A stretch of DNA of 64,000 bases, taken from Demequina sp. NBRC 110054 (GTDB lineage: Bacteria > Actinomycetota > Actinomycetes > Actinomycetales > Demequinaceae). The stretch's first letter is position 1. Every line of letters starts with the position of its first letter. The notes under the pieces are model-generated. The model was not told where the DNA came from and searched no databases. It saw nothing but the letters and a program-made list of their open reading frames with translations. A program made the translations under genes and the position numbers. Location of the stretch: the NCBI RefSeq assembly GCF_002090115.1, contig NZ_BBRK01000004.1, positions 744,001 through 808,000 of the forward strand, written 5' to 3'. Positions 39,822 to 45,634 of the stretch are shown here, piece after piece.

Positions 39822-41141
39822 TCAGCCGGTGACGCCGGCGATCTCGTTCATCTCGACGCCGACCTCGACGGACTTCCACAGCTCGCCCTCGACGTAGTCG
39901 ACGATGTGGACCTCGCCGGTCGCGGGCTCGGTCACGTACGCCATGCCTGCGAGCACCTCGACGGCCGGGTGAGCAGTCTGCCACTCGACCGGCACCTCCC
40001 ACTCGTCGACGACGGGGATCGCGGATACGACGTCGCCGGTCGCCTCGTCGAGGACGCGCAGCGTGCCATCCGTGCCGAGCACGAGGATCTCGCCGTCGTC
40101 GCCGCGGCGGATGTCGCGCCACGTGTACTCCGCGTCGGCGCCGTCGAACGGGTCGACGACGGTGCGCGTCTCATTGGCGGTGTCGAGGAGGACGATCTCG
40201 CTCAGGTTGATGCCGCCCTCGGGGTCGGTCTTGAGGTCGCCGACCACGATGTTCGAGCCCTCCGAGGAGTACAGGTTGCCGGTGCGGGCGTAGTCCTCGC
40301 CCGCGGTGAAGTAGTGGACGTGGTCGCCGTGGAACACGACCGCGCCGTTCTCGCAGCCGACCATGAGCAGGTCCTCGCCCTCCGCGTTCGTGAAGGCGGT
40401 CTCGCCGTGCACGCCCGGGCACTGGTCGGTCGACGCGATGACCTCGTCGTCCTCATCGAGCAGCATCGCGCCCGTGCGACCGTCCTCGTTGCCGATGGTG
40501 ACGAGCAGCTCGCCCTCCTCGGTCAGCACGGCCACGCCGTGGTGCGCCTCCTCGGCGTCGTACTCGCGGACCACGTCGAGGTGCCCCTCCTCGACCATGT
40601 GGGTCCAGTCCGAGGTGTAGAACGCCGACACGTGGCCCGTGCCGTCGTCGAACAGGATGCTGTAGCCGTCGTGCACGACCACGTGACCCGGCGTCTCGGC
40701 CTCGACCATGAGGTCGGTGAGGCTGATCTCGCCCGTGTAGTAGTGGTAGTGGTCCCCGTGGGCCTGCGACCACGTGCCTGCATCGAGAATCTGGAAGCCG
40801 CCGGTCGTGGAGACCGCGACGTGGCGACCGTCGCCGAGCGAGTTGAGGCGATTGAAACCGTCGAGCGCGATGTCGGCCTCGACCTCGAGAGAGTTCGCGT
40901 CCACGACGACGATGCCGCCGTCGTAGGTCATGACGAGGCGCGGGGTCGCAGACGCCTGCTCGGTCGAGCCGGACTCCGACTCCTCCTCGTCGTGGTCATG
41001 ACCGTCCTCGTCGTGCTCCTCGGCGGAGGCCGTGGCCGACGCCTCGGGCTCCGCGTCTGCGGTCGCGCAGGCGGTGAGGCCGAGCGCGAGCACTGCGCCG
41101 AGGGCGGCGTACCGGGCTGGGCGGGACAGGGTGCGTGACAT
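39822..41141 (-). CDS. aztD: AztD-like zinc metallochaperone, beta-propeller lipoprotein
   Basis: A 439-residue exported lipoprotein (lipobox LTAC near residue 25). A metal-binding His/Asp/Glu stretch follows (EEHDEDGHDHDEEE), then about seven WD-like blades of a beta-propeller with further HGDHYHYY and DHVHYF motifs. This layout fits AztD, the zinc chaperone that loads the AztC zinc-binding protein of an ABC importer. AztABC is not in this window, so the partner is unknown. Two overlapping Zur-like boxes lie at the promoter, which supports a role in zinc starvation. ATG at 41141 has GAGGAA upstream. Confidence 0.82.
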   Translation of the reverse strand: MSRTLSRPARYAALGAVLALGLTACATADAEPEASATASAEEHDEDGHDHDEEESESGSTEQASATPRLVMTYDGGIVVVDANSLEVEADIALDGFNRLNSLGDGRHVAVSTTGGFQILDAGTWSQAHGDHYHYYTGEISLTDLMVEAETPGHVVVHDGYSILFDDGTGHVSAFYTSDWTHMVEEGHLDVVREYDAEEAHHGVAVLTEEGELLVTIGNEDGRTGAMLLDEDDEVIASTDQCPGVHGETAFTNAEGEDLLMVGCENGAVVFHGDHVHYFTAGEDYARTGNLYSSEGSNIVVGDLKTDPEGGINLSEIVLLDTANETRTVVDPFDGADAEYTWRDIRRGDDGEILVLGTDGTLRVLDEATGDVVSAIPVVDEWEVPVEWQTAHPAVEVLAGMAYVTEPATGEVHIVDYVEGELWKSVEVGVEMNEIAGVTG

Positions 41142-41329: not shown

Positions 41330-42349
41330 CTACTCGACCGGCACCGCCGGCTGCTGCTGGGTGATGCAGTGGATCCCGCCGCCGCGCGCGAACAGCGGCC
41401 GCGCGTCGACCAGCACGATCTCCCGCCCGGGGTACTCGGCGGCCAGGATCTCCTTCGCGACCGCATCGTGCGGATCGTCGAACGCACACAGGATGACCGC
41501 ACCGTTGACCACGAAGTGGTTGATATACGAGTAGTCGACCCAGCCTTCGTCATCCCGCAGCACCGTCGGCGCAGGCATCGACACGACCTCAAGCGGCCGA
41601 CCCGCCGCATCGGTCGCGGCCTCGAGCGTCTCGCGGATGAGCCTGCTCACCTCGAAGTCCGGGTGCTCCGGATCCTGCTGATCGTGCAGCAGCACCCTTC
41701 CCGGCCTCGTGAAGCACGCGACGATGTCCACGTGTCCGCGCGTGCCGAAGCGCTCCGCGTCGCGCGTGAGCCCGCGAGGCAGCCAGATCACCTTCCGGGC
41801 GCCGACGGTCTGGGCCAGCTCCTCCTCGACCTCCGCCTCGGTGAGACCCGGATTGCGTCCCGGGTCGAGCTGCACCGTGCGGGTGACAAGGAACGTGCCC
41901 TCGCCGTCCGTGTGGATGCCCCCGCCCTCGTTGACCAGGGGCGAGTCGATCAGGGTCGCGCCGGACGCCGAGGTCGCGATCAGGCTTGCGTGCGCGTCGT
42001 TGTCCCACGTCGCCCAGTCCTGCGCGCCCCACCCGTTGAAATCCCAGTTCACGGCGCCGAGCGCATCCTCCTGTCCCCACACGAACGTGGGCCCGATGTC
42101 GCGGTACCAGCCGTCGTCCAGGTCCCCCTCGACCACGTCGACCTCGGGCGCGAGATACTCGGCGGCGACGTCCTTGAGATGCGCGGGCACGATCATCGTG
42201 ACGGGCTCGAAGCGCACGATCGCGTTCGCGACCGCCGCCCAGGTGGCCCATGCCTCGTCCGATCTCTCCCCGAGCGTGTACTCCGCCGACGGCCACGCCA
42301 TCCAGGCACGCTCGTGCGGCTCCCACTCGGCCGGCATCGTCCAGGTCAT
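41330..42349 (-). CDS. aguA: Agmatine deiminase
   Basis: A 339-residue enzyme of the porphyromonas-type peptidylarginine deiminase/agmatine deiminase fold, giving N-carbamoylputrescine and ammonia from agmatine. Catalytic Cys328 lies in GGGIHCITQQQP. Earlier signature regions DDGWYRDIGPTF and NEGGGIHTDGEG hold the guanidine-binding residues. ATG at 42349 overlaps the amidase stop as ATGA, so the two are translated together. The amidase may complete putrescine formation. Confidence 0.92.
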   Translation of the reverse strand: MTWTMPAEWEPHERAWMAWPSAEYTLGERSDEAWATWAAVANAIVRFEPVTMIVPAHLKDVAAEYLAPEVDVVEGDLDDGWYRDIGPTFVWGQEDALGAVNWDFNGWGAQDWATWDNDAHASLIATSASGATLIDSPLVNEGGGIHTDGEGTFLVTRTVQLDPGRNPGLTEAEVEEELAQTVGARKVIWLPRGLTRDAERFGTRGHVDIVACFTRPGRVLLHDQQDPEHPDFEVSRLIRETLEAATDAAGRPLEVVSMPAPTVLRDDEGWVDYSYINHFVVNGAVILCAFDDPHDAVAKEILAAEYPGREIVLVDARPLFARGGGIHCITQQQPAVPVE

Positions 42350-44016
42350 GCGTTCCCTCCCAGGTACGTAGGCGCGGCGCGCGGCGGCAGCACACGCTCG
42401 ACCGCGCCCGCGAGGCTCAGCAGGCGCGCGTCGTCCCACGCGCGGCCCGCGATCGTGAGACCCACGGGCATGTGTGTGTCCTCCATGACCCCCATCGGCA
42501 CGGTGACCGTGGGGATGCCGAGGTGACGGATCGCGAGGTTGCCGTTGGCCACCCACACGCCGTTGCGCCACGCCGCGGTCGCGGACACGGGGTCGACGTC
42601 CGCGTCGGCAGGGCCGACGTCGGCCATGGCGGGGAACACGACGGCATCCAGACGATGCTCATCCATCCAGTCCTCGAGGAGGACCTGGCGCGCGCGCTCG
42701 AGGCCCCGAAGCCCCTCCTCGAGGAAGGGCACGTCTCGCCACGGGGTCACGCCCTCGCGCGCGCGTCGCACGTAGTCGCCCAGGTCGAATGCGTCGTCCG
42801 CGTAGCGTGCGGGCAGGGTCAGCGAGCCGTAGCGGTCCGGCAGCGCACCCTCGGGCGCGGGGAAGATCTGATCCGGGTCGGCGTCGGCCAGAGCGTCGAG
42901 TCCCGGCTGGCCGTTCGCCGCGAGGAAGTCGTCCCACGCGGCGATCGACAGGTCCCACAGCTCGCGCTCGAAGAACTCCACGGGAACCCAGCCCTCCTCC
43001 ACGAGTGCGCCCGCCTCATAGCGCTCGACCGCCGGGAAGTCCGTCTCGACCACCTCGGCGCCCGCCGCCTCGAGCATCGTCCTGGCGCGCTCCCACAGCG
43101 CGGTCACCGAGTCCCGGGTGCGGATCGGGTGCTCCTGCTCGGGGGCGCCGTTGACGTACATGCGGGGCACCGCGATCCGCACACCCTCGAGGCTCGCGTT
43201 CGGCACCATGCTGTCCTCGCTCGCCTTGAGCTCCTCGGGTGAGGGCATCGGCACCCACGGCTGCATGCGCCACAGGTCCCCCCTGGAGTCCGGGTCGTAC
43301 GCGATGAGGAGCTGCACGAGCTCGTGCATGTCGGCGACCGTGCGGGTGTGGGGCACGACGACGTCCATGGTCGGCACGAGCGGCCAGTTGCCGCGTACCG
43401 AGATGATCCCGCGCGAGGGCGTGTACGCGACGAGCGCGTTGCACGAGGCGGGAGCCCTGCCGCTCGACCAGGTCTCCTCCCCCAGCCCGAACGTCGCCAT
43501 GCTCGCCGCGGTCGCAGTGCCCGAGCCGTTCGACGAGCCTGACCCGAACGCCGAGGTGAGGTACTCGCGGTTGTAGGGGCTCTCGGCGCGCCCGTAGAGG
43601 CCGCGCTGCATCCCGCCGTTGGCCATCGGCGGCATGGTCGTCTTGCCCAGGTGGATCGCCCCGGCCTGACGCAGGCGCTCGATCGTGAAGGCGTCGCGCG
43701 TCGCGACGAGGTCCCTGAACGCGGGCGAGCCTGAGGCGCACGTGAGTCCCGCGACCGCGTACGAGTCCTTCGCGGTGAAGCAGATCCCGTCGAGGGGCCC
43801 GAGGGCGCCCCCGAGCGCGCGGCGGTCATCCGACGCGCGCGCCTGGTCGAGCGCCGTCGGATCGGGCACACAGATCGCGTGCAGGCCGTCGGGTCCGGCG
43901 TCGAGGCGAGCGATGCGCTCGAGGTAGGCCTCGACGAGCTCGACCGCCGTGACCTCGCCCGACTCGAGTGCGGCGCGCACGTCGGCGATGGATGCCTCCA
44001 CGACGTCGAAAGCCAT
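42346..44016 (-). CDS. Amidase-signature-family hydrolase
   Basis: A 556-residue amidase-signature enzyme with Lys83 (TAKDSYAV), the cis-Ser loop FGSGSSNGSG (about residue 161-162) and the nucleophile Ser185 in EETWSSGRAPAS. The usual DTGGS is changed to ETWSS, an unusual feature. Substrates in the family range from amides to carbamoyl compounds. Tight coupling to agmatine deiminase suggests it acts on N-carbamoylputrescine instead of the usual nitrilase-type AguB. That is inference. Confidence 0.82.
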   Translation of the reverse strand: MAFDVVEASIADVRAALESGEVTAVELVEAYLERIARLDAGPDGLHAICVPDPTALDQARASDDRRALGGALGPLDGICFTAKDSYAVAGLTCASGSPAFRDLVATRDAFTIERLRQAGAIHLGKTTMPPMANGGMQRGLYGRAESPYNREYLTSAFGSGSSNGSGTATAASMATFGLGEETWSSGRAPASCNALVAYTPSRGIISVRGNWPLVPTMDVVVPHTRTVADMHELVQLLIAYDPDSRGDLWRMQPWVPMPSPEELKASEDSMVPNASLEGVRIAVPRMYVNGAPEQEHPIRTRDSVTALWERARTMLEAAGAEVVETDFPAVERYEAGALVEEGWVPVEFFERELWDLSIAAWDDFLAANGQPGLDALADADPDQIFPAPEGALPDRYGSLTLPARYADDAFDLGDYVRRAREGVTPWRDVPFLEEGLRGLERARQVLLEDWMDEHRLDAVVFPAMADVGPADADVDPVSATAAWRNGVWVANGNLAIRHLGIPTVTVPMGVMEDTHMPVGLTIAGRAWDDARLLSLAGAVERVLPPRAAPTYLGGNA

Positions 44017-44089: not shown

Positions 44090-45634
44090 CTAGCCGGTCG
44101 GGACCGCGCCCACGTGTTCGACCCGGTTCGTGGCGTGACCCGGGCTCGTGGCCCCCGGCCGGGTCGGGGACGGGGGCGCTTGCTCCGCCAGCGGCAGCAC
44201 GGGCTCCTGCGGCGCCTCGACCTGAGCGAGGAACGGGTTGCGGGTCGCCTGCCAGGCGTATCCCGCGCTGTCGCGCACGCACTCGGGGCACCAGTGCCCC
44301 GCGGTGAGGATCAGCCGCGGGCTCGCCTCGAAGTCGTGCCCGAACGCGCACCGCCACTGGAGTCGAGCCGTTGGGGTGCCGACGCGCACCAGCGGCGTCA
44401 TGAGCTCGCCTCCGCGGAAGCGAGCGGCGCCCGCGAGGTCGTCCCGCGTCCACTCCCTGGGGTGCTTCGACTCGTCGTAGCCGTGGTCGAGCGACGTCGG
44501 CGTGCGCGAGGGCGTCGGCGGCACGAAGGCGTCCCAGCCGCCGATGTGCAGCCACTCGTCGAGCGACCCGAAGTGCGCCTCCACCTCCGCCATCCGCCGG
44601 TGGGTGATCGCGTGCATCGTGCCGCGCCTCTCGTGCGCGATCCGCTGCATCACGTAGCGCTTGACGATCCAGGGCGGGACGCTCCCCGCGCGCCGGATCC
44701 GGGCCGGCGCATCCCCCACCGCGTCGCGCAGCCGGTCGTCGAAGACGTCTCGCCGGAAGGGGATCAGGTCGTGCAGCGCGTCGCTGTCGGTGAACCAGTG
44801 CCCGTGGAAGTTACGCGTCGCGAACCAGTGCCGCTCGTACCAGGCGCGCACGTCGCGCACGCCCATCGCCTCCGCGAGCGCCGTCTGGAACTGCCAGTTC
44901 GTGAGCCGCCACGCCTCCCCTCCTCCGACGTTGAACACGCGACCCCACACTTCAGAGGGGACGTCGCGCGCGGCGAGCCCCACGAGCAGTCGCGCCGCGT
45001 CGTCATCCGACACCCACTCCATGACCTCGTGCAGAGGGACATGCGTGAGGATCGGATCGCGCACGCCGAGGAGGCCCTCGTGGAAGATGCCGGTCTGCCT
45101 CAGCCACACCCAGCGTGGCAGGCCGGACTCGATCAGCAGCCGCTCGGCCTCGACCTTCGTCTGGCCGTAGGCATCGAGCTGGGACACCCGGACCGGATCC
45201 CCGATACGCCCCCAGTGGTGCGGGGGCTGCCTGTCGCCGGTCTCCGCCACCGAGCCTACGCCGACGATGGCGACCGCCGACGGATCCGGGAGCGCCTGCA
45301 CCGCCGCGATGAGGTGGCGCATGCTGCCGACGTTGACGCGGTGCGCGCGAGCGGGGTGCTCATCCGCGACCGGGGAGACGACGCCACCGACGTGCAGGAT
45401 CACGTCCACGCCGTCGATCGCACGGGAGACGTCGGCGAGCCGCGTGAGGTCGCCCTTGTAGATCTCGAGATGAGGGAGGTCCGCGAACTCCTCGAGCACC
45501 ACGTGCTCCTCGGCGCCGGTCAGGGCGAGCACGCGGACGTACAGGTCGTCGGCGTCGCGCAGCGCCCGCAACGTCGCGCGACCCCAGTTGCCCGTCGCGC
45601 CCGTGAGCAGGACACGACGCGTGGCCGCCGTCAT
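44090..45634 (-). CDS. NAD-dependent epimerase/dehydratase with C-terminal zinc-knuckle tail
   Basis: A 514-residue extended short-chain dehydrogenase. The N-terminal NAD motif is TGATGNWGRA (about residues 11-20) and the catalytic pair is YGQTK near residue 155. About 180 additional residues follow the usual domain, ending with Cys429, His433, Cys449 and Cys452 in a CxxxH...CxxC zinc-binding pattern (WRCAFGHDF and HWCPEC), which resembles a probable zinc-ribbon domain. Such a fusion is rare. The sugar or lipid substrate is unknown. ATG at 45634 is the first of the ORF. Confidence 0.8.
   Translation of the reverse strand: MTAATRRVLLTGATGNWGRATLRALRDADDLYVRVLALTGAEEHVVLEEFADLPHLEIYKGDLTRLADVSRAIDGVDVILHVGGVVSPVADEHPARAHRVNVGSMRHLIAAVQALPDPSAVAIVGVGSVAETGDRQPPHHWGRIGDPVRVSQLDAYGQTKVEAERLLIESGLPRWVWLRQTGIFHEGLLGVRDPILTHVPLHEVMEWVSDDDAARLLVGLAARDVPSEVWGRVFNVGGGEAWRLTNWQFQTALAEAMGVRDVRAWYERHWFATRNFHGHWFTDSDALHDLIPFRRDVFDDRLRDAVGDAPARIRRAGSVPPWIVKRYVMQRIAHERRGTMHAITHRRMAEVEAHFGSLDEWLHIGGWDAFVPPTPSRTPTSLDHGYDESKHPREWTRDDLAGAARFRGGELMTPLVRVGTPTARLQWRCAFGHDFEASPRLILTAGHWCPECVRDSAGYAWQATRNPFLAQVEAPQEPVLPLAEQAPPSPTRPGATSPGHATNRVEHVGAVPTG

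Follow-up and report, generated by a model that had tools for sequence, protein, structure and literature searches.

An amidohydrolase that offers an alternative route from N-carbamoylputrescine, AguY, was described by Li et al. (2025, Biochem J; PMC12283126). Amidase genes adjoining aguA are reported there in both Proteobacteria and Actinomycetota, and two of the enzymes, from S. oneidensis and Microterricola gilva, have been assayed on N-carbamoylputrescine, with kcat/Km values (per M per s) of 1.8e5 for the former and 6.4e5 for the latter. A second AguY paralogue is reported for M. gilva, and the authors conclude that Tse8 evolved from AguY. Tse8, a T6SS effector of P. aeruginosa, does not lie beside aguA in that organism and is accompanied by an immunity gene (PMC12283126). 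The same reaction is predicted for AguB and AguY, the former being a CN_hydrolase (PF00795) protein and the latter an Amidase (PF01425) protein. A search of the accessible literature for AguY together with N-carbamoylputrescine returned no report beyond PMC12283126.

The window analysed here, a 64,000-nucleotide stretch of the Demequina sp. NBRC 110054 genome, carries an aguY-aguA pair (Table 1) which very probably constitutes an operon for the conversion of agmatine to putrescine, with the amidase AguY in place of the nitrilase AguB. In the pathway predicted from the two sequences, AguA would turn agmatine into N-carbamoylputrescine and AguY would hydrolyse the latter to putrescine, by which the pair would salvage or catabolise agmatine from outside. 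We infer the substrates of the two window enzymes; gene anatomy, family, triad residues and co-inheritance with AguA are observed. As with the AguYs of PMC12283126, the product is an amidase of similar size (568 and 584 residues in the assayed enzymes), its gene adjoins aguA and it is related to Tse8, whereas the gene order differs, with aguA first in S. oneidensis and an aguY-aguA order with a 4-nt overlap in the window. The initial annotation had suspected a non-orthologous N-carbamoylputrescine hydrolase, a proposal which is supported by the family, by co-occurrence, by partner exclusion and by the homologue kinetics given in PMC12283126. It was right in kind and already published as AguY; the locus would add a case of the nitrilase AguB being replaced by the amidase.

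Organization of the locus

Table 1. Features of the aguY-aguA locus, in window coordinates.
Feature	Position	Strand	Length	Description
SDR/epimerase-like gene	44090-45634	minus		73 bases upstream of aguY
aguY	42346-44016	minus	556 aa	amidase-signature ORF; predicted N-carbamoylputrescine amidohydrolase
ATGA overlap	42346-42349	minus	4 nt	shared by the aguY stop codon and the aguA start codon
aguA	41330-42349	minus	339 aa	agmatine-deiminase-like, PAD_porph family; predicted to convert agmatine to N-carbamoylputrescine
AztD-like zinc metallochaperone gene	39822-41141	minus		downstream of aguA

On the minus strand, aguY is followed by aguA. The initial annotation had aguA overlapped by an amidase-signature gene, with an aguA reading frame at 41330-42571 that opened on an upstream GTG; homology places the start at the ATG at 42349, and with the start so moved the overlap is confirmed in the form of a four-nucleotide ATGA, which suggests that the two predicted genes may be translationally coupled. 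The SDR-like gene encodes an N-terminal epimerase/short-chain-dehydrogenase domain and a C-terminal stretch containing Cys residues (CAFGH...CPEC), for which no Pfam model match was found. The AztD-like protein has an N-terminal stretch rich in His, Asp and Glu and reaches 315.5 bits to NF038015, below the cut-off of 400. A conserved operon including either of these neighbours was considered and rejected on the basis of two close orthologue loci: at one (L024, genome G027) both genes lie near the pair in a different order, and at the other (L025, genome G001) neither has a match at E 1e-15 within 18 kb.

Family assignment and catalytic residues

Against NCBIfam NF005127 (PRK06565, ‘amidase’), AguY scores 805.6 bits, where the cut-off is 575 and the second-best NCBIfam family lies far below at 192 bits. 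Amidase PF01425 (194 bits) is its sole Pfam match, and the CN_hydrolase domain typical of AguB is absent from this aguA-adjoining gene product in the same Pfam scan. The best solved relative is Tse8 (PDB 6te4), with 679.9 bits, a peptide amidase following far behind at 128.5 bits. Tse8 belongs to the same family, aligns over residues 3-549 and keeps both ETWSS and the GSSNG motif, but window AguY differs from it in having aguA and the SDR-like gene as neighbours.

The ETWSS stretch reported in the initial annotation is present at residues 181-185, although it is not the unusual signature that it had been taken for. The AguY family was aligned in 100 rows, made up of the window protein together with 19 loci of the genome set and 80 named loci, in which ETWSS occurs together with K83, S161 and S185 in all 96 main-family rows, the window included; 22 of these are aguA-linked, with the window and the longer of the two L042 pieces among them, and 74 are not closely linked. 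The four remaining rows, which form a paralogue group, have ETVSS with the same three residues, so that K83, S161 and S185 are conserved in 100 of 100 rows. We take these residues to be the amidase-signature triad (Lys, cis-Ser, Ser), as assigned by motif spacing. ETWSS is thus the norm of the PRK06565/AguY family, with the nucleophilic Ser kept, and the view that it marks an active site that is odd or degenerate was rejected.

Membership in NF005127 is broader than AguY, since a paralogue in the window’s own genome also passes the cut-off (662 bits against 575) and Tse8 lies in the same family. Among the best 80 named loci (of at least 580 relatives, mostly Pseudomonas and Mesorhizobium), an aguA was found within 5 kb in only nine, seven of these within 300 bases, in a sample which is unfair and in which some flanks end at contig ends, the order-level counts given below being the better guide. 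PRK06565 membership alone is therefore no proof of activity, and it is the neighbouring aguA that carries most of the argument for the predicted AguY activity. The assignment sharpens the automatic ‘amidase’ labels for a family that includes the antibacterial effector Tse8.

AguA matches PAD_porph (PF04371) over its full length with 355 bits, as well as solved agmatine deiminases in the PDB. The catalytic motif GGxIHCITQQ is found as GGGIHCITQQQP, aligned with GGNIHCITQQQP of the agmatine iminohydrolase 1vkp, the Cys of the motif presumably being the nucleophile. Its score to TIGR03380 (agmatine deiminase) is 292.2 bits, below the equivalog cut-off of 381.8, for which reason the protein is called agmatine-deiminase-like here and its activity is treated as a prediction. 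The weight of this low score is softened by the fact that the TIGR03381 (AguB) cut-off is likewise reached by no nitrilase in any of 80 AguA genomes, and for this order the curated thresholds would seem to be set high.

Co-occurrence and linkage in related genomes

In a set of 59 genomes that takes in the own one, the amidase was matched in 17 (E 1e-60) and AguA in 18 (E 1e-20). Among the 17, G018 carries a paralogue-type amidase only; main-type AguY is present in the other 16, with AguA in 16 of 16 and adjoining in 15, the exception being G019, where the two genes are on different contigs. In an order-level set of 297 genomes, 86 were found to have AguA (E 1e-60 or better) and 54 to have AguY (E 1e-100 or better), with the two together in 52, a pairing greater than expected by chance (hypergeometric 2.6e-32 for the 297 genomes, phylogeny being ignored). 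AguA is missing from two of the AguY genomes, G264 and G313, whose AguY copies share only 51 and 53% identity with window AguY. The 56 order-level AguY copies are a lower bound, scoring having been confined to a few top candidates in each genome; for 34 of them AguA is no more than 2 kb away, with the genes arranged as aguA-aguY in 24 cases, as aguY-aguA in five (the window included) and divergently in five. That the pairing is kept through three different gene arrangements speaks for a shared function. The remaining 22 copies, the own-genome paralogue among these, are not within 2 kb of AguA. In genus g7, the two genes are on different contigs, or separated by more than 100 kb, in all 13 genomes that have both; this weakens the case for an operon and leaves that for co-occurrence unaffected.

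Several loci deserve separate description. Two same-genus genomes, G019 (L046 and L035) and G275 (contigs C26 and C27), hold aguA and aguY on different contigs. With neighbours named by reading, the lone aguA of G019 adjoins a dnaB-like gene, as is also found near the window’s pair, while its lone aguY occupies the site at which the same-genus loci L032 and L036 carry the pair. No remnant of the absent partner was found at either split locus, the best values being E 0.31 for AguA in L035 and E 1.6 for AguY in the 4-kb L046, and the split has the look of two cassettes that underwent complementary losses. In G008 (L042:8145-9777), the aguY match is broken into two pieces that lie in different frames, so that the gene may be disrupted; the adjoining aguA reads through. 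By reading of the neighbours, a TetR-like regulator gene adjoins the pair in L027, L028, L029, L031, L033 and L037, with acyl-CoA-synthetase-like and glutaminase-like genes nearby in L028, L029, L031 and L033.

Nitrilase partners and possible alternative substrates

A search with TIGR03381 at E 1e-25 or better covered 80 of the 86 AguA genomes (all 127 rows). Of the 34 genomes with AguA only, 14 have a nitrilase no farther than 5 kb from aguA, as opposed to none of the 46 with both AguA and AguY; in the other 20 AguA-only genomes no nitrilase was detected by this search within 5 kb of aguA. In the remaining six AguY genomes no nitrilase lies near aguA, by coordinates read from a separate search. 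Among the AguA genomes examined, there is thus none with a nitrilase neighbour of aguA while AguY is present. In the 14 nitrilase-linked genomes the nitrilase precedes aguA, which is the slot held by aguY in the window, and the adjoining nitrilases score 174-212 bits to TIGR03381. AguB-like nitrilases are the aguA partner in 14 genomes of the order, and the same AguA family clearly swaps partners, AguY or an AguB-like nitrilase, within a single order.

In a different, improbable reading, the substrate of the pair would be some guanidino compound distinct from agmatine, a divergent AguA producing another ureido compound that this AguY lineage hydrolyses. Window AguY and two same-genus orthologues (82-83% identical to it) form a long-branched clade, parted by a branch with 98% SH-aLRT support from Pseudomonas, Aeromonas and most other actinobacterial members, in a tree of 99 rows made with a quick method that gave a warning of long-branch joins. 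Among these rows, to which the assayed S. oneidensis and M. gilva sequences do not belong, the lineage stands on a separate long branch, and its activity is a prediction. It is improbable that this lineage is a deep AguY branch that evolved separately, possibly with a shifted substrate alongside its sub-threshold AguA; if true, the shifted substrate would mean that one pair of enzyme families serves in two pathways. In favour of such a shift are the AguA score under the agmatine deiminase cut-off and the long branch that sets the lineage apart from most other AguYs, but the triad residues and ETWSS are common to all 22 aguA-linked rows of the alignment, and in 14 relatives AguAs 59-64% identical to window AguA have AguB-like nitrilases as partners, in keeping with the same ureido intermediate. 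Conversion of agmatine to putrescine by AguA and AguY thus remains the preferred reading.

As to an aguB elsewhere in the genome, for which the initial annotation had advised a search, no own-genome protein is over the TIGR03381 cut-off, while one nitrilase (G000:C4:530475-531302, 247.9 bits) remains a candidate. It adjoins a dihydropyrimidinase (538.5 bits to TIGR02033), as do its counterparts in five of six similar nitrilase loci of other genomes, so that a role in pyrimidine breakdown is likelier, and the arrangement suggests that its predicted substrate is beta-ureidopropionate. That this nitrilase is the working AguB and the amidase stands outside the pathway, as a Tse8-like or general amidase, is very unlikely: the nearest solved structure of the amidase is indeed that of an antibacterial effector and the nitrilase does reach 248 bits to TIGR03381, but the aguA-adjoining nitrilases of relatives score lower to that model, the dihydropyrimidinase neighbour recurs, and AguY both overlaps aguA and co-occurs with AguA.

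Agmatine and putrescine genes in the own genome

Searches of the own genome gave no match to agmatinase (TIGR01230), to the OKR-type decarboxylase (PF01276) or to the pyruvoyl arginine decarboxylase (PF01862). Agmatinase was likewise without a match in 35 of 36 other same-genus genomes, G018 being the exception with a 42-bit partial match. The single PF02784 match is LysA-like and lies beside an argS-like gene, names being given by reading of the open reading frames. No putrescine transcarbamylase over the cut-off of 500 was found; the best candidate, at 238 bits, lies between argD- and argR-like genes and is ArgF-like by the same reading. Since the three families tested yielded no arginine decarboxylase, agmatine would come from outside, and with no agmatinase or putrescine transcarbamylase over cut-off either, the pair most likely salvages or catabolises external agmatine, a role that can be stated as probable.

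The own-genome AguY paralogue (L041:8463-10418; G000:C4:1155468-1157108) is 52% identical to window AguY, has ETVSS for ETWSS and is not near aguA. It lies directly downstream of a PLP aminotransferase-like gene, and a similar aminotransferase neighbour is found, by reading, in two of the three other genomes with the ETVSS paralogue.
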